This document shows positions 11,105 through 60,294 of a stretch of 64,000 nt of DNA, in pieces (position 1 is the first letter of the stretch; each line of letters begins with the position of its first letter). The stretch covers positions 18,121,118 through 18,185,117 of the forward strand of contig NC_087078.1 in the NCBI RefSeq assembly GCF_026151205.1, read 5' to 3'. The notes under the pieces were generated by a model. That model worked only from the letters and a program-made list of their open reading frames with translations. It was not told where the DNA came from and made no database searches. The position numbers and the translations under genes were made by a program. The stretch is from Bolinopsis microptera (taxonomy: Eukaryota; Ctenophora; Tentaculata; Lobata; Bolinopsidae).

Positions 11105-14100
11105 ATGGCAGACCGACAGAATGAGAACTCTCGTCTGATGGATTATCCAGGAGGCAGGAAGTACAGTGCTGATGAGAAGAGGACTGCCAGTGGAGAAGCC
11201 GGGACTGTCGTACAACTCCGGGACTGGCTGGATGACCCCTACGAGCAGGTTAGACTATGCCAGTTTACTTTTTCACCCGGAGCAGTTTTATCCCGTACGA
11301 AAAGGTTCTTCTTAGGGCCTTTTCAATGATAAGCTATGGTAATGGTAGCAGTTACGGAGATTGAGATTACTTTAGACCTTTTAAATTCTGGTTTCAAGGT
11401 ACATATCTTATTTTAGCTCACAGCTGTCCATTACCCGATTGTGTGCAGGTGTCGGAGTTACCATCTCAAAAATACGCTAGTGCAGATGACGGTAAGATCC
11501 AACTATCTCGACGGACCACGACGGACTCCATCGGGGACACCATTGCACTGACCGAGAGCACTCAACCTCCGTGAGTACTCAGTACTGCTGTGTTTCTTGT
11601 TATAAACTTAAAAGATGCTATCGATCATTTGTCGTTTCAAGTTGGCCCATGAAGTCTACATGATGTATAACTATGCAAAGGTGGGCAATTCGGTAGTGTG
11701 GCATAGCACGGTTAACGCACGGTTAAGGCACGGTTAAAGCACAGTTAAGGCACGGTTAAGGCACGGTTAAGGCACGGTTCAGGCACGGTTAAGGCACAAT
11801 GGTTACATAAGGCACGGTTCTTAAGGCACGGTTAACGCACGGTTAACGCACGGTTAAGGCACAAACTGCCCAAAAGCAACCATTATGGTCGCTTAAGGCA
11901 CGGTTAACACACGGTTAACGCACGGTTGGGAAATATAACCTATAAACATACAAGTGGTTAACTAAGGCACATGATCTGAATGTGACGATCTGTAAATTTT
12001 ACAGTGCGATTCCCGCTATGAGTAAATTTTCTAATTCTAATTTGAAATCCTTATCTCGATTAACGATCTTTTCAAGTAACCAGGCTTTTTTTTAAGAGTA
12101 GACAATGAAAAGATGGGATGATTGTGTTGAATAAAGCTGCGTTTATATACAACTGTAATAGAGTGACAGAGCTTGTTTATTTCGGGATACAAGGAATACA
12201 AGGAATACAAGGAATACAAGGAATACAAATTCAAAATCTTAAGCTACAATAGTAACTGTTAAGATAATAACAATATCATATGATCCATGTCAGCTGATCA
12301 ACGAGATCAAAAGTTTGCATGTATTGATAAGTGTGCGGGTGGTGTCAGCACGCAGCAAGGTTAGGTGATGTGATCTGATACAGATCACAGGTAGGTATCA
12401 GATCCAGGGCCAAGGCCTCCATAAATGTGACGGTCATTCCTTTGAACTGAGTGATCGATCTTTTTTTGAAGGTTCCGAAATCTCAATTGATTCCGTGCAG
12501 TCAGAAATCAAAGTTGCCCTTCGTGAAGTTTCACCAGAAATCACGCCGGGCCAAGCCAAATCAAGCTGCACCGAATTGTTCTGGCGACCCAGTGTTGTGA
12601 AAGCATTGTGCAATGATCTTACTTCAGGTCTACCGCCAAATACACCCAGTCCTGGCCACCCTGAGGACAAAAACTCCCTTAAAACCTTGCTCGCAACCAT
12701 AAACAACCGTGTTGGAGCTCTAACAAACAAAAATACCTTGTTCAACGGGCTCAGAATTATATATTCATTTGACAGGACCTCCAGAATGCCTCTGAAGAAC
12801 ACTCATAAAGATGACAATATGCCTCTTGTTATTCTACATATAGGAAAACCTAGAGACCTCAGTATCACCCCTCTCAGGTTTAACCCAGCCGTAGAAGACA
12901 CCGAAGTCTGTGATGTCAGTCTAGGTAACTTTAGCCTCGTTACTCTATACCCAGATTCCATTAAACATCTTCACTGCTATTTCTCTCCTGAGCTAAAGAA
13001 AAATGAGGGCGGTGACGAACAAGTCCTGATCATCCCGTATGTCGAAAACGTAGTAGAAGCTATTGATGAACCAGAAACTCTTCAAGCAACGGAATCGCAA
13101 CCGGACGAAACTGAGCCTCCTGCTGCCGACATAACCACACCAGCATCAGCTAAAGAAACAGCCGTCAGTCTACCTGCGTTTACCAATGAAACATCTCACC
13201 ATATCTCAAACAGTGTTCCACCTCCTCCTGACCCTTGTTTCATCAAACACAGTGAGGACCAAACAAGTGTCACCAACTCCCCAGTTGCAGTCTTCGACCC
13301 AAGAAGCAATTTGAACGAGCAGTCCAACATCTGCGAAAAGCCTGCTAGAATTACATCGGGTAAAGAGAAGGTTCTCGGAGTACCTAATCTGGACAATAGC
13401 GCCTCCATCGTGTTTAGATACATCACACTCGATCTCCTTAAAAACGCAGCAAACACATACAAAAAGAGCGCACTGGTGTCATTAGCATCGTCTCTCGGAT
13501 TGAAAGGCTCCAACAATGTCACCACCAACAAAAAGAAGCTCTGTGACCTTCTCGAAACCTGTGAGACCACTGGTTCTAAGGAAACCGCAAAACTAGTCAC
13601 ACACCTAATAAACAAACTGGAGGACACCGTGATCAAATTTGAGCTCCTAGCAAACAGCCTCCCACTGAGCAATTCAGCCAGGGAAAGGAAAACTGACCTG
13701 GTTACGTTCTGCACAAACCGACACGTAAGCAGCGAAATTACTAGGCTAGTGTTCGATAGTCCAAATGAGGAAGCACCTGGAAACTCGATTTGTAGTAACG
13801 TCATACAGTCGCAGAATACGGAACATTTTGATAGCGAGCCAAGTTTACACGACCCGGGCGATTACATAACCCCTGGTGGACCGTTATCCGGCAGCTCCGA
13901 CACAAAATTTGATTTCTTAACACCCCAGGCACAACAATGCCCTAAAATTCCGAAAAAGAAAAAGGGGAAGAGCAACAAAAAGAAAAAGAGAGGGAAACGC
14001 ACCGATGATCAAAGCTTATCCATCTCAGGTGACACTCAGAAATCTCACCGAAAAACCTCTGATGCCTCCGTTACAAATGATGCTAGGATTATCACCAATG

Positions 14101-17100
14101 AGCTTACTACGGAAGCCAGCGATGGAAACCAACCAACTCGTGATGATAACCCTGAGGATCACCTGACCCTGAACGGTTGCAATAACTGCTCAGACCTGAA
14201 ACATTCGATGTCTGTACTTCAAGACAGTCTACTCGAACTCAAAGAAGAGATGCTTCAACAAAAAGCATTCTCTGACCTCATCCTATCATCCCCAACCACA
14301 TCTGAAAAATGTGTGTCATCCATCTTTAAAAAGAAAGTTGGCCCAATAGAGACCAAGCTTAATGGAATTCGGGCTGACCTCGACCAACTTAGATCAGCAG
14401 TAGACGAGCAGAACTTAATTCTCGAGAGACTGATCAACTTCAAAGCTCAGTTCTCGGACGAACTAAACACGATACAAAGTACGACTCTGAAAGTATTGTC
14501 ATCTGCCAATTCCGCTAACAAACAGAGGATCGAGACCCTCGAGATCGGCCAAGAAAACTTGACGAAAGCCACGAAAGGAATTGCCAAGTCTGCACTCAAT
14601 CAATCACATGCCTCAACCCAAGAACTTAAACATGAGCTTCGCCCCATCGTCGAGGCAATTGAAACCACAAGCGCATCGAACAGTTTCAGAATTGAAACCC
14701 TGGAGATCAACTTAGAGGACACGATACAAGCTCTAAACGCTGCTGAACAACCCGCAGTGAATAATATACCAGCGGCACTCAATAGTCCTTCCACAGGGAA
14801 CTCCAAGCCAACACTCAAACGCAAGAAATTCAGAGTACACCGTAACAGCTCCAGCGATGCCACAGCACGTTCAGGTGAAAGCGAGCTCAAGCAAGCAGAG
14901 ATGTCCTGGGCAGAGAGGGTTGATCAAAGCAACAAGACGCCATTCACGGTGGCAAACAAGCAGAACATGAAAAACCACAATGAAAGGGGCTCTAGAGGCG
15001 ATCGACCCTCTAGCGAAATGAGGCGAAGTCGGGAGAACCTCAACACTAGAAGCCGCCAATATGACCTCGGAAACAGAATAGAACATACTAACCCCCCCGA
15101 TCGGGGTTCCAGTGAAACAAACTCTGCCGCTGAAGCTAAGGTTAGCTACAGGCGTCACACAGTTCTTCTCATCCATGATGAGAGCTTTGACGAGTTTGAC
15201 CCGAGGCGATTTAACAGTCAGTTTAATGTTCACTGTTTTAAAGCAGATAGTTACTACGATATGCTGAAAAAATCAAAGAAGCTCAACAACACTATAAAAA
15301 GACTAAGACCTGAGTGCATTTACATACACACAGGGAGCAATGATTTCCTTAAAAAGAAATCAAGTCTTGTAAGCAATGTGAAGGAACTCTACGAACATTT
15401 ACTGAACACCACAAAGGCTCAAATATGCTTTTCAGCGCTGATACCCTCCTCCAACAACTCTAGCATCAATGAAAGAATACAAGTCGTCAATGAGGAGACC
15501 AGAAACCATGTTAGCTGGCTCCACAAACACAGGCCGGATGTCAAAGATAGGATCTTCACCTTTTCAAACGATAAAATTGGCGATCAAAATTCTTATTCGT
15601 TCAACACTGGATTCGAGCTAAGGCAGAGAGGTCAAAAGATGCTTTGGCTTCGCCTCCGGGAGGGTCTGAGGAAGACCCTGCGACTCCCCCGAATAAGCTA
15701 CCACGACAATGATAAAACAAGACGCAGCACCAACAGGTTTAGCAATGACTAAACCCACATCAACGAGGTCCCGCCACTCCCTTAAGTTTCTGTGCTGGAA
15801 TATCAACCACTCTCGGGACAAAATTGAAGGAGCCAAGGTTGATATAACCGAAATTCGTGAACTACTTGACAACCACGATATTTTTGCTCTGCAAGAAACA
15901 AAAGGGAGATCAACTTAAGTAACTACTGTTGCTTTAACTCTAACAGGAAGGGATCAAATTCAGGTGGAGTATGCATCGGAGTTCACAAAAGCTTAAAAGC
16001 TGGTGTAACCAACGTTCGTATGAATTCCACGGAAGATATCGTTGTAGTTAAGCTTAAAGCTAACTACCTCGACCTAGACCGAAACACCTATATTATCAAT
16101 GTCTATGACTCACCCAAAAATGGATCCTACAAGAAGCGAAGAAAAGGTCTGGAAACTGAAGACAGTATGTCAACTCTAGAGGATCTTCAAGAATTCCTGG
16201 CTGGAGTTCCTCTGAACGAGGATATCATTCTTCTCGGGGATTTCAATGCTAGAACTGGCACTCTGGACGACATGTTATCAGACCATAGTCTAATGAAGGA
16301 TACAGAGCTCGACGCTCATTTCTCTAAAAAGCTGGCTAAACGCAATAACTCAGACCCAAAGCTAAACACGAATGGGCGACCCTTCATCGAACTCCTTCAG
16401 ATGACAGGCCTAGTCATCCTAAATGGCAGAACTCTCGGCGACATATTCGGTGAACCCACCTGTATTCAGCGGCATGGTGTCAGCACAGTTGATTACATTT
16501 GCGTCTCGACGAGTCTTCATGACAGAGTCCGCCACCTGAAAATTGAGAGCATCTCTCAATATTCCGATCACAGAGCGCTGTCAATGTCAATATCGACAAA
16601 CCCTTTAAGAAGGACTTCTAACAGTCTTGAATCGCCAGATATCCAAGATGCACCTAAAGCTTTCAAATGGAACTTATCAGAGAACCTCTCTGCAGACACA
16701 GCAACTAAGTTCCGGCTGGCACAGAATGATCAGTCATTCAAAGACAAAATGGACTGCCTCCTTGATCAACCAGTGAACACAGCAAACGACGCTGCTCAGC
16801 TTAATAAAGACGTGGTTGCAACATACCACAATCTTGCGAATTTTGTTACTACGACCAAAAGTGGCAAACGCACCAGTAAGAAAAAGTGGTTTGACCAAAG
16901 CTGTAGACATGCTAAAAGAGAGGCCAACAGAGCCGACAGAAATGCCAACAGTAACCCACACAGCAACTTCCTTCGTGACCAGCACTTCCTCAGAAAAAAG
17001 GAATACCGAGGATGAAAAAGGGGAAATTCCTGTATGAGATGAACCAGAAGATAAACGAAAGTGGAGATGTAAACTGGGCAGCACTCAAACGGCTATCTGA

Positions 17101-20100
17101 CCAGTACAAAGATGAAGAACCATTCGACATTTACGATCTCATCCTCTTCCACAAATTCTTTAATGATCTCTACAACCGGAAGTGTGGTAGGAACGATCAC
17201 TCAAGGGACGATGTCACCTCTACTCCATTGTCCAACAATTCGCAGCTCACCAAGGAACTGGTCGATGAACTGAATCGCGACTTCACGTTACAGGAAATCA
17301 AAGATGCAACTAAAAAACTCAAAAACAATAAGAGTGTGTCCGATGATCTGATATCCAACGAAATGTTGAAAAACTCCAACGAGAAACTCCAACTCGTCGT
17401 GGTAAAACTCTTCAACTCCTGCCTCCAGCATGGAACTTACCCCTGGAACAACTCCATCACAACTCCCCTCCATAAGAAGGGTGACCGGCAAAACCCTGAT
17501 AACTATCGGGCCATAACAATTGGGAGCTGTCTCGGTAAACTCTTTTCGAATCTACTCCTCAAACGGTTAATCGAATTCAGAGAAAGAGCCTGTCCTGACC
17601 GACCCTATCAACTTGGATTCAGGAGTGGAGCCCAATGTAATGACCACATACTCACCCTAAATACAATCATTGAGAAATACGCCAAGAAAGAGAAGAAGCG
17701 ACTATTCGCATGCTTTGTTGACTATCGCAAGGCTTTCGATAGTGTATGTAGGGAAGCACTTCTGTTCAAGTTGAGCAACATGGGAATAGCAGGCAAATTC
17801 TTCGAATGCATCAGTCACATGTACAACAACTCTTCAACCCGAGTCAAGCTGATCCAAAAGCTCTCCGCAGCCATTGACGTCACGATCGGTACAGAACAAG
17901 GGCATCCAATGTCCCCTGAGCTCTTCAAACTTTATATCCACGAGCTCTCCATCAGGCTGGAACAAATTGAGGAATTGGATGTACCTCTTCTAAACGGTGT
18001 TAAAGTAAGCCACCTCCTTTGGGCAGATGACCTGGTCCTCTTAGCGCTGGATGCGGACAGCTTACAGAAACTGCTGAACTGCTTGCATGACTATGCCGTA
18101 AAGTGGGAGTTGTCTGTGAACATCAACAAAACCAGTGTGATGGTATTTAACACAAGCTCACGAATACTCAAATGTGCTTAAGGATTTAAACTAGGAAACT
18201 TGGACATCGCACCAGTAAGAAAATACTGCTACCTTGGAATCCAATTCTCTCTGAACGGTTCCTTCAAACAAGCAATCGACGAGCTTAGGAAAAAAGCTCT
18301 ACGCTCGTTCTTCTCTATGAGACGAATTATTGACACGAGAGCACTCTCCACTAGCACGATGCTAAAACTCATCGATAGCTTAGTCAAGCCAGCAGCTACA
18401 TACGGATGCCCTGTTTGGCTGCCATCGACCAACATCGCGAAAGCCATTCTCTCAAAAAACCAAGAAGTGAGTCTCCCAAAAGCAGCAGCAAAAGATGCTC
18501 TCGAATCTACTCACCTAAAAATTCTTAAATGGATATTGGGTGTCCACAAAAAGGCAAATAACAACTTCTGTTACGGCGACACAGGAAGAACCCCCTGGAC
18601 AGTGACCGTCCTCCCTCAATGTATTGCCTACTTCTATAGAGCATCACAAGCGGTAGTAGGTAACGTGAACACACTTCTGCACCATACATTTCAGGAGCAG
18701 AAACAACTGAACCTTACCTGGTATGACACTTGGTCCACTATCATCAAGATGAGCACCTCCGCTAAACCAAACCTACACCCCGCTCTTGCAGCACGTGAGC
18801 ACATACACGAAACCTTTGTGAACCACTGGAAAAAGGATCTTCACAACCAGCCGAAGATGTCATTCTACACCGCGGTCAAACCTGAGTTTGGTGAAGAACA
18901 GTACTTACAGATTCCGTGCAGGCTTAAGAGAGCTAACATTGCTAAACTTCGCTCTAGCAGTCACGATCTGAGGGTAGAGAAAGGTCGATATACTAGTGAT
19001 CGATACAACACAGCATTGAAAACGTGTCGTTTTTGCTGCTCTCCAGACACAGACGTCATTCGCTTTTTCGAAGAGCTACCTTTCTTTGAAACACCTATCC
19101 TAGAAACTGAGGATCATGTCATAACTGAATGCCCTGGATACCACTCCCTCCGCTCAAAGCTTTCTGATAACCTGAAAAGCCTTGTAATGCTAAAAGAGTA
19201 TAGGACCATAATGAACTCTTGTCACACAAAAGAATTCGGGAAATACCTAACAGACTCTTCAAACCTTCGAAATCCTAAAAATAAGTCCTAATCCTCGTAC
19301 TCGAACTTTATTTACTGTATTACCTTCAATTATTATAGACGATCTTCTTTTATTTTCGTGACATTGTAAACGGTTAAATTTTAATAATTTTTAAATGATT
19401 CAGTTTTAATAATTTTATTTATTGATTTATTCATCCTTGTATAGCCAAGACGAGTCCGTTAGTGTTCTCTCTGGTAATTTCATGTTTAATCCTGTTTAAT
19501 CCTGTTTAATACATGACTGCGAAGTAGGATGTGTAGATCACCTCGCTCAAATAAACAGGTGTGAGATCTAGGAGATGTTAACTTAATTTGAAGAGCCTGG
19601 TTACTAAGTTACTTGAAGAGATCGTTAATCGAGATAAGGATTTCAAATATAGGACGGTCAAACGAAGCAGGGCTGTTGCTTTAGAATTAGAAAATTTACT
19701 CATAGCGGGAATCGCACTGTAAAATTTACAGATCGTCACATTCAGATCATGTGCCTTAGTTAACCACTTGTATGTTTATAGGTTATATTTCCCAACCGTG
19801 CGTTAACCGTGTGTTAACCGTGCCTTTAAGCGACCATAATGGTTGCTTTTGGGCAGTTTGTGCCTTAACCGTGCGTTAACCGTGCGTTAACCGTGCGTTA
19901 ACCATGCCTTAAGAACTGTGCCTTATGTAACCCTTGTGCCTTAACCGTGCATTAACCGTGCCTTCTTAACCGTGCCTTAACTGTGCTTTAACCGTGCCTT
20001 AACCGTGCGTTAACCGTGCTATGCCACACTACCGAATTGCCCAGAGGTGCAATTAAAATATAAGTTAAACGTGTGGAGGGGGTGTTGTTTTCAGTGATAT

Positions 20101-29100: not shown

Positions 29101-32100
29101 ATATTGTCAGGTGATAGTGGCGGTGATACTGTTAGTAGTGGTTTACGCGCTGATAATGACAGAGATAATCCACAGAACAAGTGCTGCTCTGCTTGGGGCG
29201 AGTTTGGGTTTGGCTGCTCTCAGCATCTTAAATATGGTATGTTAATTGTGAGATTTGGTAAACTATCAGCTATGGTAAACTTTGTTTGCTGCTTAATTTG
29301 TGTATCATTTGTGTACGCAATGAGACTTATTCTCGTTTTGATTGACCATATGTATATTACAAGAGACCTCCTTGTCTAATAATCTTCACTATTATTTAAT
29401 TACTAATTCACTAATTAATTAAATAATCTTCACTGCTATTTAATTACTAATTCACTAATTAATTAAATAATCTTCACTATTATTTTTACAGAGACCCAAT
29501 ATGGAACTAATTATCAGTTGGATAGACTGGGAGACATTGGCTCTACTAATGGGAATGGTATGTGACGCGAGGAAATATTATTTCAGTTCGCAGACAAAAC
29601 TATTGACCAAGTGTTGAGACAAAGAAATTTTACAATTTTTGTAGTAAATTTACGAGAAAGTTTCATGAAAAGAGAGCAAATGATCCAATTTTCCAACAAA
29701 ACATTTCACCACGAACTTGGCACGAATTCAAAACACAACTACACAATTTATCAAAGCAATCTCTTACTCATGAAATTCAGAGAATCGAAATCTCTTATTA
29801 AGTAGCTACAGCTCGCATGGTCCTTCCATCGCAAAATTAGGGTCCTATTCCTTAAAAGATTTCCAGAAATTTCGAATTTATACTTCCTGAAAATGCATAC
29901 AAATATAAATTTTAAAATATAAATTTAAAATTCCATAGTATGTGCATGAGTCGTAACTACGTGTATTTGTAAAATAAGCCTTGTGATGTATGACTCAATA
30001 ATACGTCGATGCAACGTTTCTAACAATACTGATACAGAGATTGAGCAGTGAGCAGTGTTACTCAGTAACACTGAAACTAAGGTCACACCCTTTTTCACTA
30101 TTTCACTCACAAGTCACCTCATGATCGTGGTAAGAAGTAGTAGTTTTACTACAGCTACTGTAGACTGTAGATGTATAGGTAGGATTAGCAGAACCAGACA
30201 TTTATACAACAAAGAATGGCTAGAAGCGATGTTTTTTGCAAAAACAGAATTTTGTCGCGCACGCGCCTTCTGGCCAATGGTCATATCATGGGGTCATGGG
30301 GTCATGGGGTCTTGGGATCATAGGGTCATATCATGGGGACTCGTCCACAGTAATAGCACCAAGATACAGGAATCAGTCAGAGGACACAACTCATGCACTA
30401 TGCAGCACTAATTTCTGTAGAACGTACCTTGTCACTTCAATCGGCCATAATATAAGTTAACGACAGCCGTTCTCAAGCTGGATACAATGACCTGCAAATG
30501 TTTTAGAATAAAAAATAATTTAATCTAAAATCCGTCCAGTCCTAGGTTTATATACCTTGCTTCATTTATTGAAGCAAGGTATATTTCGGTATTGAGTTTG
30601 ATTTTTGAACTTATGCTTTTGACCCCCTAATTATTAATAGGGATTTTGAAATTGTATCTAATAATGTTGTCTTTTTGGTAAGTGGAAATTACACAATTTG
30701 GATGATTTCATTATAGATGAGGTAGCAATGACAAATAACAATTGAGTTCTATATTATGAAAATGATTATATATTCCATACAGAAGTTCTTCGGAAAACTT
30801 CAGCAGCATACGTCATACCTGCCTTTCTTTCACTTTTGAAACGACACCAATAGGCTTATATTTCAAATTAGTTCATGTAGTTAATCAATATAATTACCAA
30901 ATTACTTTCAGATGTTAATGGTGGCACTGCTGGCAGACTCAGGATTCTTCGACTGGACAGCCGTGAAAATGTACGAGCTGTCTAAAGGAAGGATCTGGGT
31001 GTTACTTACCCTTCTAAATGTGTGCACTGCTGTCATGTCCGGATTCTTAGTGAGTAGCAGCTTTGTTTAGATACACACTCCACACTCCACACTCCACACT
31101 CCACACTCCACACTCCACACTCCACACTCCACACTCCACACTCCACACTCCACACTCCACACTCCACACTCCACACTCCACACTCCACACTCCACACTCC
31201 ACACTCCACACTCCACACTCCACACTCCACACTCCACACTCCACACTCCACACTCCACACTCCACACTCCACACTCCACACTCCACACTCCACACTCCAC
31301 ACTCCACACTCCACACTCCACACTCCACACTCCACACTCCACACTCCACACTCCACACTCCACACTCCACACTCCACACTCCACACTCCACACTCCACAC
31401 TCCACACTCCACACTCCACACTCCACACTCCACACTCCACACTCCACACTCCACACTCCACACTCCACACTCCACACTCCACACTCCACACTCCACACTC
31501 CACACTCCACACTCCACACTCCACACTCCACACTCCACACTCCACACTCCACACTCCACACTCCACACTCCACACTCCACACTCCACACTCCACACTCCA
31601 CACTCCACACTCCACACTCCACACTCCACACTCCACACTCCACACTCCACACTCCACACTCCACACTCCACACTCCACACTCCACACTCCACACTCCACA
31701 CTCCACACTCCACACTCCACACTCCACACTCCACACTCCACACTCCACACTCCACACTCCACACTCCACACTCCACACTCCACACTCCACACTCCACACT
31801 CCACACTCCACACTCCACACTCCACACTCCACACTCCACACTCCACACTCCACACTCCACACTCCACACTCCACACTCCACACTCCACACTCCACACTCC
31901 ACACTCCACACTCCACACTCCACACTCCACACTCCACACTCCACACTCCACACTCCACACTCCACACTCCACACTCCACACTCCACACTCCACACTCCAC
32001 ACTCCACACTCCACACTCCACACTCCACACTCCACACTCCACACTCCACACTCCACACTCCACACTCCACACTCCACACTCCACACTCCACACTCCACAC

Positions 32101-35100
32101 TCCACACTCCACACTCCACACTCCACACTCCACACTCCACACTCCACACTCCACACTCCACACTCCACACTCCACACTCCACACTCCACACTCCACACTC
32201 CACACTCCACACTCCACACTCCACACTCCACACTCCACACTCCACACTCCACACTCCACACTCCACACTCCACACTCCACACTCCACACTCCACACTCCA
32301 CACTCATGTTGTATTGGCCAATTAAAGGTGGCAAACCGTGCGGTTTTATGAATGAGTAAGAGTAAAATTCTTTGTTAGAATTAAAGTTTTTATAGCTTAA
32401 GTTAGGGCTAGTAATTATTCAAAATTTAGCCTCATTGCTAAAAACACTTGACCATCAGTATTTAGTTCGCTAGTTTGTGCTAATTTGAATTTGTTTCAGG
32501 ATAACGTAACCACCATTCTTCTGATAACACCCATAACTATCACGTGAGTTTCAACTGTGCGATCATTAACAACTAATTATAAAAATAAAAATAAACAAAA
32601 TTTTGTTTTAAAATAATTTAAAAAAAAAGAATTATGTTTTTATCTCCGCATAAGTTCTGCCAGTAAAACACCTATGTTCAATTAGAAACATGATTTATCC
32701 GAATTAATTTATTTAATGGATCTTGGAAAGTTAAGTTGTAAATAACTCTCTGGGTAATAACTCTATAAAATTTCAACTAGTTTCCATACAGGTTGTGTCA
32801 GGTGATGCATCTTGATGTCAAGAAGGTGATTCTAGCGATGGTGATGTTTTCAAATCTCGGAGGAGCTTCTACCGGTATAGGTGATCCTCCCAACGTTCTT
32901 ATCATCAACTCTCCACTCCTTAATAGTGTAAGTTAATTCGTTGTTTTGAGGCTCGTACTCTCACTACTCATACCTTATCGGACCTTATTTGGACGGACAT
33001 TAAATGAACGGACATAATTATGAACGGACATTAATATGAACGCTATAGAAGGCATTCATAAAAACATCAAAAATCCGAATTTTTTTCATTTTTTTGACGT
33101 TTTTTTACTTCAGCAAATGATTTTTAAATACTTTTTTATACAATAAGTAAGAAAAGCAGTCGTTAAGCAGTAAAAATTTTAAAATATGTGTTCATGATCA
33201 GTGTCTAATATCACATATCATCTTCATCAAATGGGTTTTCGTGCATGAAATAGTCCATGCTTAAAGCATCAGTGATTTCTAGCTTTATGGAAACCTTTTT
33301 TATCAAACTACCCCGGTCCTGCATTTCAGTGTTAAATTTTACAAGCCATTCGGCGTGAAGTGGTTTTATCTTAGACAACTTGAGGGTTAACCATCACTGT
33401 TTCATTATACCTCCCCTGAGTAATATGAACTATAACAACGTCGGTCGTCGGACAATGTCCTTGGTGCAACACGATTTACCGTAATATCTAGAGGCTGGAA
33501 TAAGTTTGTCATGTTGGCGAGGACTAGCAGAAGCTCATGAACTATGTTGTTGAGTGCCATAATTTCGTTGAATTTTTCCGCCAAGTGACCCTTGAAAACA
33601 TCATATACTAGTAGAGTTTTCTGTGCCTCCGCGGCAGACCAAGGAGAACGACTGTTCATTTGAGGTCCGTCCAAGTTAAAGTCCGTTGATTTTTTTTTTC
33701 AAAACTTTTTCCACTTCGAACTTTTTGTCCAGAATATGACAACTATGAGGGGGGTCCCGGAAAATTTTGCGCTTTTAGACGCTAATAACCTTACCAGAAA
33801 GTTTCTGAATTAACTTGAAGAGCTCAATAAAACATAATGTTTTAAATTTGAAAATAAAGGTACAAATATTTTAATAACAATTAAAACATAATTGACACTG
33901 AGACTGTTCAATTCAACACAACTCTGCGGTCACTCTCAGCAAACTTGTCAATAATGACAGCAATGTCTATAGCTTTGACAAGCTCCTTTTCGTGACTGAG
34001 AAGGGTAAGGTCGCTTATCCTCTCGTCACTGAAGACTGCAATTTGCTTATATGATTGTGGCCCAGGCCTCAGTGTTCGTACTTCGCTGGTTCGTTTACTG
34101 GTAGTCGGTGACCGTCAAAACATTGTAAATTTCCGTATAAATCACAACGTTTTTTAAATAAATACGCAAAAACCTGTTTTTTTTTATCTAGACACTTATT
34201 TTACTTCGGAGTATTCCAACAGCCATATTGTTACACAAGTGCAACCAGCCAATTACAGGAAGCCGAAGGATTTGTTTTTAGCCAGTGACGGTTAAGGTAG
34301 TGTGTACCATACTTTCTTCGCCCGAGACTTTGCTGCAATGTGCAGCTCCTCATTTAACCCTCACACCCGATTTCTCGAGTATTCGGCTGAGTAGACCGGG
34401 GGGCTGCATAGACCACTCATGATCCTTAGCTGAATGTCAACGACACTCACCCCACGACCAGGCAGGCAGTGGGATTTGAACCCGCAACCTCACGATTGCA
34501 AAGCTGGCTAACCAACTGCGCTACCTGGCCGTTAAAAAAACGTAATTCAAAAAAACGTAAAACACGTATTTCACAACCCTGACATTAAGATGAACGTTAG
34601 GGCCTCCAGCGTTCAATTAATTTCCGTCCAAATAAGGTCCGATAAGGTAGTCAGTAATTGTGATAAGAAAACACACAAAATAAAATTATCCTGGTATTTC
34701 GGATCATGGAAATCATTTGAAAGCTATAACTATAAGCTAACCCTCGCTATTATTACAGAAGATAACATTCGGGAAGTTTACTGGCCACATGATGGTTGGT
34801 TCTATTCTCTGTTCAGTGGCTGCTTACATTTACTTTTGGTAAGTAGTGATTACCTTTCTGACTGTTATCACGTTTTTGCTTGCCTCCAATTACTTAGATA
34901 TATACTACATTTTAAGCTCGGATGTCTAAAGCCTTTCATAGCAGAAATATAGTTTAATTGCTGCGTGGATATTTCCCCTGCCTGATCGCAAATAAATAAC
35001 AGTAAGTAAAACCGACCGTTATTAGTCTTGTTAAGAAAGAAATCTCATGATAATTTGTACATGAATAATATGACGGGAATTATATTTACCCATTCGTTAC

Positions 35101-57184: not shown

Positions 57185-57406
57185 TATAAATATCTCCGGG
57201 ATTTCGACGCGGGATCATATTATCACTCAGCCCGGCCCGCTGTTAGATAAACATCTCAAGGTGATATCATCCCGCCCCGGAAATTTGTATAAACCCGGCC
57301 CGCTTTTTAGTCGTAACTGATGTTTATCATTCAATTCTCCGACTTACAATAATCAATGATACTGCTGATTAGAACTCGACAATAGTAGAACAGTTAGACG
57401 CGCGAT

Positions 57407-57490
57407 CACGTGGGCGCGTCACGTGCGTACCACGTGCCACCAATAGCATACGCCGAGTCTATACCACGTGACACGAAAGCGCACCACGTG
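57407..57490. promoter_or_regulatory. Cluster of five CACGTG E-boxes with CCAAT
   Basis: Exact CACGTG at 57407, 57420, 57431, 57465 and 57485, plus CCAAT at 57440-57444, all 210-290 bp upstream of the ATG at 57698. The mirror-image cluster is at 58858-58941. This density is far above chance and looks like a bHLH-Zip-responsive promoter carried by the element. Confidence 0.55.
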
Positions 57491-57697
57491 ATATGAAACA
57501 TCGTAACCGTCCACTTCTTTTACACGCAAATTCCTGGGAACGTTGCCAAAGCAGCTAATTCTTCGAATTTCTCCAACGCGTGGCGTGAGAAGTTGGCGAC
57601 TAGCCAGCTACCCTTGTCCGTGCCCTAAAAATAGTATTGTTTTGCTTGCTCTCCTTCCAGCTCTTGTTCCTGCTAACGTTCAAGCTATTGCTCCACT

Positions 57698-57802
57698 ATG
57701 ACAGATCGGTTTGACATTCAGATTGATGAACTGCTTTCCAATCGTGTTCCGGACAGTACAGTTAGAGTCAACAACTGGGCTCTAAACAAATTTAATTCTT
57801 AG
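57698..57802 (+). pseudogene. 34-codon ORF resembling the start of a DUF3504/Crypton-like protein
   Basis: Reads RVPDSTVRVNNWALNKFN before a stop. The pattern VPxST...NWAxxxF is how the core-binding region of ZMYM/QRICH1/Crypton-type tyrosine-recombinase-derived proteins begins. It looks like a 5' fragment with its promoter, cut off after 34 codons. The identity rests on a short stretch. Confidence 0.35.
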
Positions 57803-58128
57803 AGTCAGCTCTTGTTCTCTCTTCTAAAGTATAAATCCCTTGTCGAAATCGCCGGAGATAATTATAATCCATAAACACTTCACGCTCAGGTCTATATAAA
57901 TGTAATCCCTCAGCTGGCGCTTCGGGATTACATATTAACACAAAACTCGTGCGCTGCGCGCACTCGTATGTGTTTATCAGATCATCCCGCTAGCGCGGGA
58001 TGATCTGTTATATAAACCCTTTGCGTGGCGGGTTTATGTTATTATTAACAAGTAACTAGAATTTTTTCAAAAATGAGCTAGTTTAATGTAGATCTGGAGA
58101 CTGGTGGGTACTGGCCGGGGGTCAACCA

Positions 58129-58212
58129 TACTGGCATACTGGCATACTGGCATACTGGCATACTGGCATACTGGCATACTGGCATACTGGCATACTGGCA
58201 AACTGGCATACT
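58129..58212 (+). repeat. 8 bp tandem repeat (ACTGGCAT)n
   Basis: About ten copies in the 263 bp spacer between the two element copies. Confidence 0.95.
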
Positions 58213-58254
58213 TGTCCAATGTTCATAGAGGTTTTGAAATGTTCATAATTTTAT

Positions 58255-58305
58255 CTTATTTACACTTATTTACTTTACGGGCATTCCAACAGTCACATTG
58301 TTACA
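58255..58305 (-). mobile_element. SINE 3' fragment, part 1 (interrupted)
   Basis: GCATTCCAACAGTCACATTG and neighbours match the 3' part of the SINE at 34195-34232. The match breaks at 58305 and resumes at 59164 (CAAGTGTAACCAGCC), so element copy 2 sits in a SINE fragment. Confidence 0.75.
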
Positions 58306-59163
58306 ATAACATAAACCCGCCACGCAAAGGGTTTATATAACAGATCATCCCGCGCTAGCGGGATGATCTGATAAACACATACGAGTGCGCGCAGCGCACG
58401 AGTTTTGTGTTAATATGTAATCCCGAAGCGCCAGCTGAGGGATTACATTTATATAGACCTGAGCGTGAAGTGTTTATGGATTATAATTATCTCCGGCGAT
58501 TTCGACAAGGGATTTATACTTTAGAAGAGAGAACAAGAGCTGACTCTAAGAATTAAATTTGTTTAGAGCCCAGTTGTTGACTCTAACTGTACTGTCCGGA
58601 ACACGATTGGAAAGCAGTTCATCAATCTGAATGTCAAACCGATCTGTCATAGTGGAGCAATAGCTTGAACGTTAGCAGGAACAAGAGCTGGAAGGAGAGC
58701 AAGCAAAACAATACTATTTTTAGGGCACGGACAAGGGTAGCTGGCTAGTCGCCAACTTCTCACGCCACGCGTTGGAGAAATTCGAAGAATTAGCTGCTTT
58801 GGCAACGTTCCCAGGAATTTGCGTGTAAAAGAAGTGGATGGTTACGATGTTTCATATCACGTGGTGCGCTTTCGTGTCACGTGGTATAGACTCGGCGTAT
58901 GCTATTGGTGGCACGTGGTACGCACGTGACGCGCCCACGTGATCGCGCGTCTAACTGTTCTACTATTGTCGAGTTCTAATCAGCAGTATCATTGATTATT
59001 GTAAGTCGGAGAATTGAATGATAAACATCAGTTACGACTAAAAAGCGGGCCGGGTTTATACAAATTTCCGGGGCGGGATGATATCACCTTGAGATGTTTA
59101 TCTAACAGCGGGCCGGGCTGAGTGATAATATGATCCCGCGTCGAAATCCCGGAGATATTTATA
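58306..59163 (-). mobile_element. 858 bp palindrome-rich element, copy 2
   Basis: Reverse complement of copy 1 over its full length, with very few differences seen. It starts ATAACATAAACCCGCC and ends GGAGATATTTATA. It carries the mirrored ORF (58546-58650, minus) and E-box cluster (58858-58941). Insertion into the SINE fragment removed or duplicated no bases, judged against 34200-34260. Confidence 0.8.
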
Positions 59164-59652
59164 CAAGTGTAACCAGCCAATTACAGGAAGCCGAATTGCA
59201 ATATTTATATACATCTCGCGGGGTACAATATTCATCTACTTAATAATATTTAAAGTTCAATACTATCTCGCTCTCCCTTACCGGCCAGCTAAGCTATATT
59301 GCAAAATGTATATTATTATTGCAAAGCCGCGAAAAGTTGGCTCAGTTTTTATTGAAACTGTAAATATATTTCACTTTCGAACTTTTAGCGACCAGGTTTT
59401 CTCGGCTGTACTATACTTACAGTACAATTGGTGTAGAATGAGATTCCCTATACTGTCATACATATTATGTACTTTGTACCTACTAACTTACAGTTTTTGT
59501 CGAATACAGAACCATCATTTACTCTTAGATAGCAATTGTTTTAACTTCAAACAAGACTTTTTATATTATGTTTTTGCTTTTCAATGCTTGAAGGAGGCTT
59601 TTGATATATTTATAGCAACAATTTCACTAACTGACAACAATATAACCCAGCA

Positions 59653-60294
59653 ATGATGGCAACAATAAAGCTACTCCTATCTCTCCTCCCACTCCTCTCC
59701 ACAATTGAAGGAGCCTGCAAGTCAGGAGCCCTAAACCAGTTCGAGCTTGCTATCCTGGACAAGCACAACTCACTACGAACCCTCCACCAGGACACCCCCG
59801 ACCTGTGCTACGGGGAGAGCGGTGAGGACGTCACCTTCACAGCAGAGTCCTGGGCCCAGGCCATGGCTAATGCCAAGACCATGCAACACAGCACGGGGGG
59901 AAGCTATGGTGAAAATTTGGCGTACGCTGGAACCACGGGGACAGTCCCTGGACAGGAAGAAGCGTACACGAAATCCACGCAAGCATGGTACGACGAGATT
60001 AAAGACTGGGACTTTGGGAAGAGTGCCAGCAAGGGCGGAGTAACGGGGCACTTTACTCAAGTGGTTTGGAAGGCAAGCAAGCAACTGAACTGTGGCTACG
60101 CTACATTCCAGAACCAATACAACTCCTACTATGTCGTGTGTCAGTATTATCCTCCTGGTAACTACGGTGGTCAGTACGCTGCTGAAGTAACCGGAGTGAA
60201 GGAGGAGGGAGAGGGAGGTAGTGGTGCTGGTTTACGGTTTAACAGCGCAGTTACCGCCTTGGTCGTGCTGCTTGTAACCGTGTTGTACTTGTAG
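59653..60294 (+). CDS. CAP-superfamily (SCP/PR-1) secreted protein, intronless
   Basis: 213 codons. Signal peptide residues 1-20 (LLLSLLPLLSTIEGAC). CAP domain about 30-175 with the pattern ILDKHNSLR, SYGENLAY, GHFTQVVWKASKQLNCG (CAP1) and YVVCQYYPPGN (CAP2). The expected H and E cavity residues are visible (KHN, GEN, GHF). A short E/G-rich linker leads to a C-terminal hydrophobic segment (ALVVLLVTVLYL) at the very end, as in GPI-anchored proteins. CAP proteins are extracellular, with roles in defence, reproduction or lipid binding; the role here is unknown. Unlike the P-protein, homeobox and MFS genes it has no introns, which may reflect retroposition. Confidence 0.9.
   Translation: MMATIKLLLSLLPLLSTIEGACKSGALNQFELAILDKHNSLRTLHQDTPDLCYGESGEDVTFTAESWAQAMANAKTMQHSTGGSYGENLAYAGTTGTVPGQEEAYTKSTQAWYDEIKDWDFGKSASKGGVTGHFTQVVWKASKQLNCGYATFQNQYNSYYVVCQYYPPGNYGGQYAAEVTGVKEEGEGGSGAGLRFNSAVTALVVLLVTVLYL

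Follow-up and report, generated by a model that had tools for sequence, protein, structure and literature searches.

How did two copies of an 858-bp sequence come to face each other across 263 bp, and by what route does such a sequence enter DNA without duplicating its target? We addressed these questions in a 64,000-nucleotide stretch of the Bolinopsis microptera genome, referred to here as the window, and by searching 264.65 Mb of genome sequence. The best explanation of the whole, which we consider highly probable, is that the window copies are internal-deletion derivatives of a Crypton-type recombinase transposon that has fixed ends, inserts without target duplication, and carries an internal complementary region (ICR), which is an inverted and imperfect copy of its own joined ends.

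An inverted pair of copies in the window

The two copies lie in opposite orientation, with copy 1 at positions 57185–58042 on the forward strand and copy 2 at 58306–59163 on the reverse strand, each 858 bp long, as a sequence-only reading of the window had described. The arms of the pair are 99.4% identical over 873–874 bp, and the extra 15 bp of this alignment consist of two similar target sequences rather than element sequence, because the ends of the element are fixed from the genome copies. Measured against a full-length copy of 2,554 bp, copy 1 consists of bases 1–616 and bases 2329–2554, and a 16-bp filler (57801–57816) separates the two parts at the deletion junction. This filler is partly templated, with a 12-bp match within the element, a length reached by none of 100 random fillers. 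On the forward strand, copy 1 contains the left end L (57185–57229, starting with TATAAATATCTCCGG), which would form one half of the joint of a circular intermediate, and a remnant of the recombinase open reading frame (57698–57802) of 34 codons, which is ended by a stop at the deletion junction. These elements are followed by the ICR, on the reverse strand (57828–57908; bases 2340–2420 of the element), by three right-end hairpins at 57900–57933, 57937–57974, and 57978–58007, the third with a perfect 13-bp stem, and by the right end R (58012–58042). R comprises a local hairpin at 58012–58037 and a terminal GTTAT, and folding indicates that its bases could pair with the ICR instead of forming the local hairpin. 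The target sequence to the right of copy 1 is TATTAA (58043–58048). Copy 2 mirrors this arrangement, with its ICR on the forward strand at 58440–58520 and hairpins 3, 2, and 1 on the reverse strand at 58341–58370, 58374–58411, and 58415–58448. Rfam matches at gathering scores and tRNA genes were sought across the window, with none found.

Copy 2 interrupts a SINE, with one part at 58262–58305 and the other at 59164–59195, and an uninterrupted copy of the SINE at 34192–34267 preserves the unfilled site. Segments 58262–58305 and 59159–59195 together align to 34192–34267, and the joined flanks of copy 2 restore the SINE at the junction 34235|34236 with 3 mismatches in 28 bases, no duplication, and no loss. 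The proposal that this insertion left no target duplication is therefore upheld.

The deletion, the filler, and two sequence variants are shared by copies 1 and 2 and are absent from all other copies among the 76 compared. Consequently, the two window copies are directly related, one having inserted close to the other in inverted orientation; a single deleted copy, or a common parent, would have inserted twice, 263 bp apart. We also considered that the pair arose as an inversion through intramolecular replicative transposition, and rejected this possibility because copy 2 sits between the two parts of one SINE. Inverted pairs found on C10 and on C4 likewise each share their deletion. Among 87 protein matches, four pairs lie within 3 kb of each other and all are inverted, one of them (C3) being more distant with 60% identity. 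A direct tandem pair exists in a related family, so that inverted orientation is not a rule. A possible inverted pair of the related family was observed at C3:3820186 (forward strand) and C3:3821937 (reverse strand).

The family, its recombinase gene, and its deletions

Searches with the left 150 bp and the right 200 bp of the element gave 182 and 183 candidate places, respectively, or about 180 for the family. These first-look counts are lower bounds, and the 40 matches scored from each search were 99–100% identical to the query. We collected 76 distinct copies with both ends for counts of ends, flanks, and deletions, leaving out left ends for which the retrieved sequence contained no right end (C4:9122849, C7:11745788, and L108), ends cut by a locus border, and L115, which has no left end. 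The left end reads TATAAAT in 75 of the 76 copies, with a different left end in L029, and the right end reads GTTTATGTTAT in 75, with the last base changed in L022. Comparison of the copies in pairs over both ends gives a median divergence of 0.56% (mean 1.28%, largest 23%) and 25 of the 76 are identical to the column majority, indicating a young family. Self-comparison at 20 bases or more detected no inverted terminal repeats pairing the ends of a single copy; the left end has its inverted partner inside the element. In L113, the right-terminal 108 bp are repeated behind the copy, as would be expected if one copy had inserted into another and the outer part had then been lost.

Longer relatives of the 858-bp sequence, which the sequence-only reading had proposed to seek in the host genome, do occur: a 2,554-bp copy at C1:13992632–13995185, the sole full-length copy among those examined, carries a linked tyrosine recombinase gene. 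The gene has at least one intron, with GT...AG ends, and the open reading frame remnant in the window is its start. The 34-residue fragment has no Pfam match on its own, but its frame runs on into a DUF3504 domain in the full-length copy, confirming the suspicion that the fragment resembles tyrosine recombinases. Exon 1 (267 residues from the ATG) matches Pfam PF12012 (DUF3504) with an E-value of 2.8e-11 and 44.2 bits against a cut-off of 29.7. Exon 2 alone has no Pfam match, and we take its KSIR, TGH, and tyrosine (...KSIRP...TGH...Y) to be recombinase catalytic motifs. In the R-H-R-Y tetrad, both arginines and the tyrosine are presumably present, with the HxxR histidine replaced by lysine in the window family and by arginine in the related family. 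Apart from the two recombinase exons, no frame of the 2,554-bp copy exceeds 84 residues, and the eight other frames (62–84 residues) have no Pfam match over the cut-off, with one weak match to TMEM192 (E-value 0.03). Neither a frame nor a Pfam match for reverse transcriptase or RNase H was found in this copy, and its scanned frames gave no Rep/helicase match. On the evidence of its sequence, the element is a DNA transposon with a Crypton-type (DUF3504) tyrosine recombinase as its sole recognized gene. The DUF3504 domain was traced to Crypton recombinases by Kojima and Jurka (PMC3212892). The recombinase route suggested in the sequence-only reading is thus supported both by the duplication-free insertion and by the linked gene in the longer relative. 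Origin as a TIR transposon or MITE, or as a LINE, is rejected on the basis of the ends, targets, lack of duplication, and gene content, in line with the poor fit to TIR transposons and LINEs claimed at the outset.

Almost all copies are internally deleted. Only one of the 76 is full length, and 70 of the 75 shorter copies have a single internal deletion, with 56 different junctions; the other five, with more than one rearrangement, are not counted among the 70. Left breakpoints range from base 378 to 1344 (quartiles 559, 635, and 721) and right breakpoints from 2096 to 2346 (quartiles 2300, 2325.5, and 2334), with all 70 simple deletions ending at or before base 2346, at most six bases into the ICR. 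In the exact-junction set (54 junctions from 68 copies, with 2 of the 70 skipped), 37 junctions lack filler, and microhomology of at least two bases occurs at 18 of them, against about six expected. The remaining 17 junctions contain filler, which in four cases has an element-internal match of a length reached by at most 1 of 100 random fillers. We infer that most deletions probably arise by template switching as the element is copied, at a stage before or during its insertion. It is unlikely that these many deletions instead represent later decay of insertions that were once full length and are not products of transposition. Some change after insertion probably did occur: L039 and L040, at the same place of units of an array on C8, differ in junction length by about 32 bp, and the right end has lost short internal stretches in four copies. 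However, 39 of 40 copies chosen by their left 150 bp alone, a choice free of right-end bias, retain the right end and none is full length, while random decay would have removed ends as well; the microhomology and templated filler also point to template switching during copying.

The related family is represented by an element at C12:5804075–5806475 (locus L079, C12:5804000–5808500), which is 2,401 bp long by its presumed ends. Its recombinase is 46% identical over 254 residues to that of the window family and is encoded by a continuous open reading frame that lacks the intron of the window-family gene. This frame matches DUF3504 with an E-value of 7.5e-16 and Phage_integrase, below the cut-off, with 3.6e-4, and a search of the PDB returned QRICH1 as its sole match (E-value 6e-4). 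The related family has its own ends, ICR, and hairpins, and 228 first-look candidate right ends, again a lower bound, of which the 40 scored were 98–100% identical. Its genome copies include one exact R|L joint with no base added or lost, in a direct tandem pair at C2:4285091–4285120 (L116, C2:4285030–4285190); for the window family, a genome search allowing zero mismatches found no exact R|L joint. Further DUF3504 frames of 412–673 residues, at C1:14643638, C7:11498218, C1:22197653, C8:8011739, C1:15150139, and C4:7001375, may belong to other Crypton-like elements or to host genes.

The internal complementary region and the predicted fold of the joint

The sequence-only reading described the ends of the element as hairpin-rich. 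This description holds for the right end, where 150 bp fold with z-scores of −9.3 and −10.4 on the two strands and none of 200 shuffles is as stable, but it fits the left end poorly (z −1.9 and −2.7, where 12 and 0 of 200 shuffled sequences reach the stability of the real one). For a control stretch from the interior of the element, the z-score was 0.07. The ICR, at bases 2340–2420, corresponds in inverted form to positions −45 to +43 of the joined ends, with 66 of 80 aligned bases identical and a score of 77 compared with 22 ± 4 for dinucleotide-preserving shuffles, none of which scored as high in 1000 trials. The ICR of the related family (bases 2207–2262) matches its own joint at 48 of 56 bases, with a score of 70 versus 19 ± 4 and, again, none of 1000 shuffles as high. 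When joint and ICR are crossed between the families, the scores fall to 42 and 32, compared with 77 and 70 for the families' own pairs. Thus, each ICR follows the ends of its own family, through compensating change or through re-copying. The ICR as a template that renews the ends in every cycle was rejected because 14 of the 80 aligned positions differ from the ends.

With 250 bases of the right end and 50 of the left end as input, the joints of both families are predicted to fold into a long stem, formed between joint and ICR, that is capped by three hairpins. The predicted energies are −78.0 and −80.3 kcal/mol, with z-scores of −14.4 and −14.5 (100 mononucleotide shuffles each), and the right 233 bases of the window family alone give −9.1 against dinucleotide shuffles. 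The joint is therefore predicted to fold on one strand into a stem with three hairpins that resembles an integron attC site. Losses within hairpins 2–3 occur in 4 of the 76 copies (L015, 19 bases; L024, 41; L057, 36; L103, 38), implying that the hairpins are not needed whole or were cut later, and no losses of five or more bases inside the ICR were found in the 76 aligned copies. An insertion of 423 bases lies close to the right end of L007.

To our knowledge, an inverted copy of an element's own joined ends has been known only from DIRS1-type retrotransposons, which are another class of transposon. In the open-access papers searched, as far as their text was available, we found neither an ICR nor a hairpin-rich end in any Crypton. 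Within the same limits, open-access papers that name Crypton, DIRS, and internal complementary region together either ascribe the region to DIRS or mention it only as an abbreviation-list entry. The claim that no described family has this structure goes too far, since the recombinase belongs to a type already described, that of Cryptons (DUF3504); what appears to be new, from sequence comparison, is an ICR in a Crypton-type element that follows its own ends in two families. By its domain match, the element is like CryptonA, the animal Cryptons, which have a DUF3504 tyrosine recombinase as the sole recognized gene, no terminal inverted repeats, and no target duplication, and for which non-autonomous derivatives exist, according to the available text (PMC3212892). 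It is unlike CryptonA in its ICR, hairpin-rich right end, and described target preference, and in having 56 deletion junctions in 70 copies rather than a few amplified derivative families.

Target sites, junction polarity, and the route of insertion

In the right flanks of the 76 copies, T occupies +1 in 76, A +2 in 57, T +3 in 70, A +4 in 70, and A +5 in 53; in the left flanks, T occupies −9 in 51 and −8 in 42, and A −7 in 47. These counts look like a target preference of the form TTA-N8-TAA, for which the complete TTA (−9 to −7) is present in 21 of 76 targets and the complete TAA (+3 to +5) in 44, and the corresponding dyad axis ranks second (score 0.854) to that of the target's own TATA (1.115). 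The joined ends of the element read TTA-TGTTAT-TA-TAA, with arms and spacing equal to the target preference. The element starts with TATAA, and the right flank reads TATAA in 32 of 76 copies and TNTAA in 44; a direct terminal repeat is thus similar between copies but not fixed. In the parts of the literature available to us, Cryptons are described as carrying the same short direct repeat at each terminus in every copy (PMC8969392), and animal Cryptons as having no terminal repeats (Kojima and Jurka; PMC3212892).

Unfilled sites were identified for ten insertions, none with a duplication. Together with the fixed ends of the 76 copies, these sites extend the lack of duplication claimed for copy 2 to the family. 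Nine of the sites differ from the joined flanks by 0–3 mismatches in 28 bases: the SINE for window copy 2, a copy of the element's own family for L099, three tandem arrays for L008, L034, and L045, and sequence nearby or elsewhere in the genome for L024, L042, L052, and L091. The tenth, for L039/L040, lies in the C8 array, where the 120-bp joined flank is matched whole or nearly so by 10 further units at 96–99%, and by two more at 87% and two at 81–82%. Units of this array, around 16.51–16.62 and 18.45–18.46 Mb of C8, are ~2.6 kb apart and include filled and unfilled sites of one insertion. The count leaves out L030, L031, L089, and L106, where the matches are the copies' own left junctions. 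In L030, whose right flank is TATAAACCCCTCCGGG, a window-family copy lies exactly at what appears to be the left terminus of an element from the related family.

The junctions have a single polarity, in that on the left side the six bases preceding the exchange point remain those of the target. The TGTTAT of the element is found in none of the 76 left flanks and at the right side in 75, with the last base changed in one, and in the 19 copies where the target base at +2 is not A, the element's A is kept on the left in all 19. Such uniformity points to the exchange of a single strand, for which integrons and bacterial SE elements (the latter as described in the available text of PMC9345347) offer parallels, or else to an exchange whose stagger is close to nil.

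The two ends probably meet as an R|L joint in a circular intermediate, and this joint would be crossed with the target by the recombinase. More tentatively, we propose that the joint acts in a folded, single-stranded state. The ICR could act as a splint that base-pairs with both R and L of one strand and holds them end to end, creating an attC-like double-stranded site capped by the three hairpins; one strand would then be exchanged, and replication would complete the insertion. Copying of the element by repair or replication after the one-strand exchange would account for deletions private to individual copies. Alternatively, it is possible, if rather doubtful, that the element moves by ordinary two-strand recombination of a Crypton circle, with the hairpins and ICR serving a replication origin or regulation, or remaining as a relic of an inverted self-insertion. 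Cryptons have been proposed to leave as extrachromosomal circular DNA (PMC3212892, in the text available), and one copy in this genome, L099, did insert into a sister copy in inverted orientation. However, a staggered exchange of two strands leaves a mismatched stretch that can be resolved either way, so that polarity should be mixed, while the observed polarity is not. A relic would also be expected to decay, yet two families with recombinases only 46% identical keep the ICR near the same place and matching their own ends, and none of the 70 simple deletions reaches beyond base 2346, at the edge of the ICR.

The presence of an ICR also raises the possibility that the family is a non-autonomous offshoot of a DIRS1-type retrotransposon and is mobilized by reverse transcription, which we regard as very unlikely. 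DIRS1-like elements do share with the window family a tyrosine recombinase, insertion without duplication, and an ICR near the 3′ end that is complementary to both joined ends (PMC3266345, available text). In contrast to DIRS1, the full-length copy of the window family has no reverse transcriptase frame or Pfam match and retains an intron, there are no inverted terminal repeats, and the ICRs are only 82–86% like the ends and so are not recopied in each cycle. Further, the recombinase belongs to DUF3504, which DIRS recombinases reportedly do not match (PMC3212892, available text). The Helitron-like, rolling-circle route that the sequence-only reading had raised is more improbable still. Hairpins near the end and the lack of duplication would suit a Helitron, but the scanned frames contain no Rep/helicase match, and the TATAAAT and GTTAT ends and the TTA-N8-TAA preference differ from the 5′ TC, 3′ CTRR, and insertion between A and T of Helitrons (PMC8969392, available text).

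For the proposed folded-strand route, parallels exist in bacteria. Integron attC sites are palindromic and can fold on one strand, as predicted here for the joint, and they undergo one-strand exchange with replicative resolution (PMC3053210, PMC4792948, and PMC2727003, as far as available). Unlike attC, the site described here belongs to a eukaryotic transposon, spans about 250 nt with three hairpins, and would be recognized by a DUF3504 recombinase rather than an IntI integrase. SE elements share with the window family a tyrosine recombinase and a 6-bp spacer, and their circle is made from one strand, with the donor site rarely emptied (PMC9345347, available text). They differ in being bacterial and in having several genes, and the same text reports that no inverted repeats were detected in SE-6945 attB, attL, and attR.

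If the folded-strand reading is true, the element would be a DNA-only counterpart of the DIRS1 ICR and of bacterial integron cassettes. The DIRS1 ICR is explained as part of the retroelement cycle, and we know of no demonstration so far of how Cryptons multiply. An ICR that co-varies with the ends in two families of a recombinase-only DNA element suggests that the device belongs to the recombinase route, with an origin before, or apart from, reverse transcription. Whether a folded single strand is the substrate of a eukaryotic tyrosine recombinase thereby becomes a question open to direct test, and because the family is young and abundant, intermediates may be detectable.

Several other features lie in the window. 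An array of an 8-bp unit (CATACTGG) is found between the two copies at 58127–58212, and a gene for a CAP-domain protein is located about 0.5 kb from copy 2 at 59653–60294. A long tandem repeat of short units at 31047–32334 is open in more than one reading frame on each strand, and positions 12495–19291 are occupied by a retrotransposon of the non-LTR type, whose frames encode an endonuclease and a reverse transcriptase (Pfam PF14529 and PF00078).
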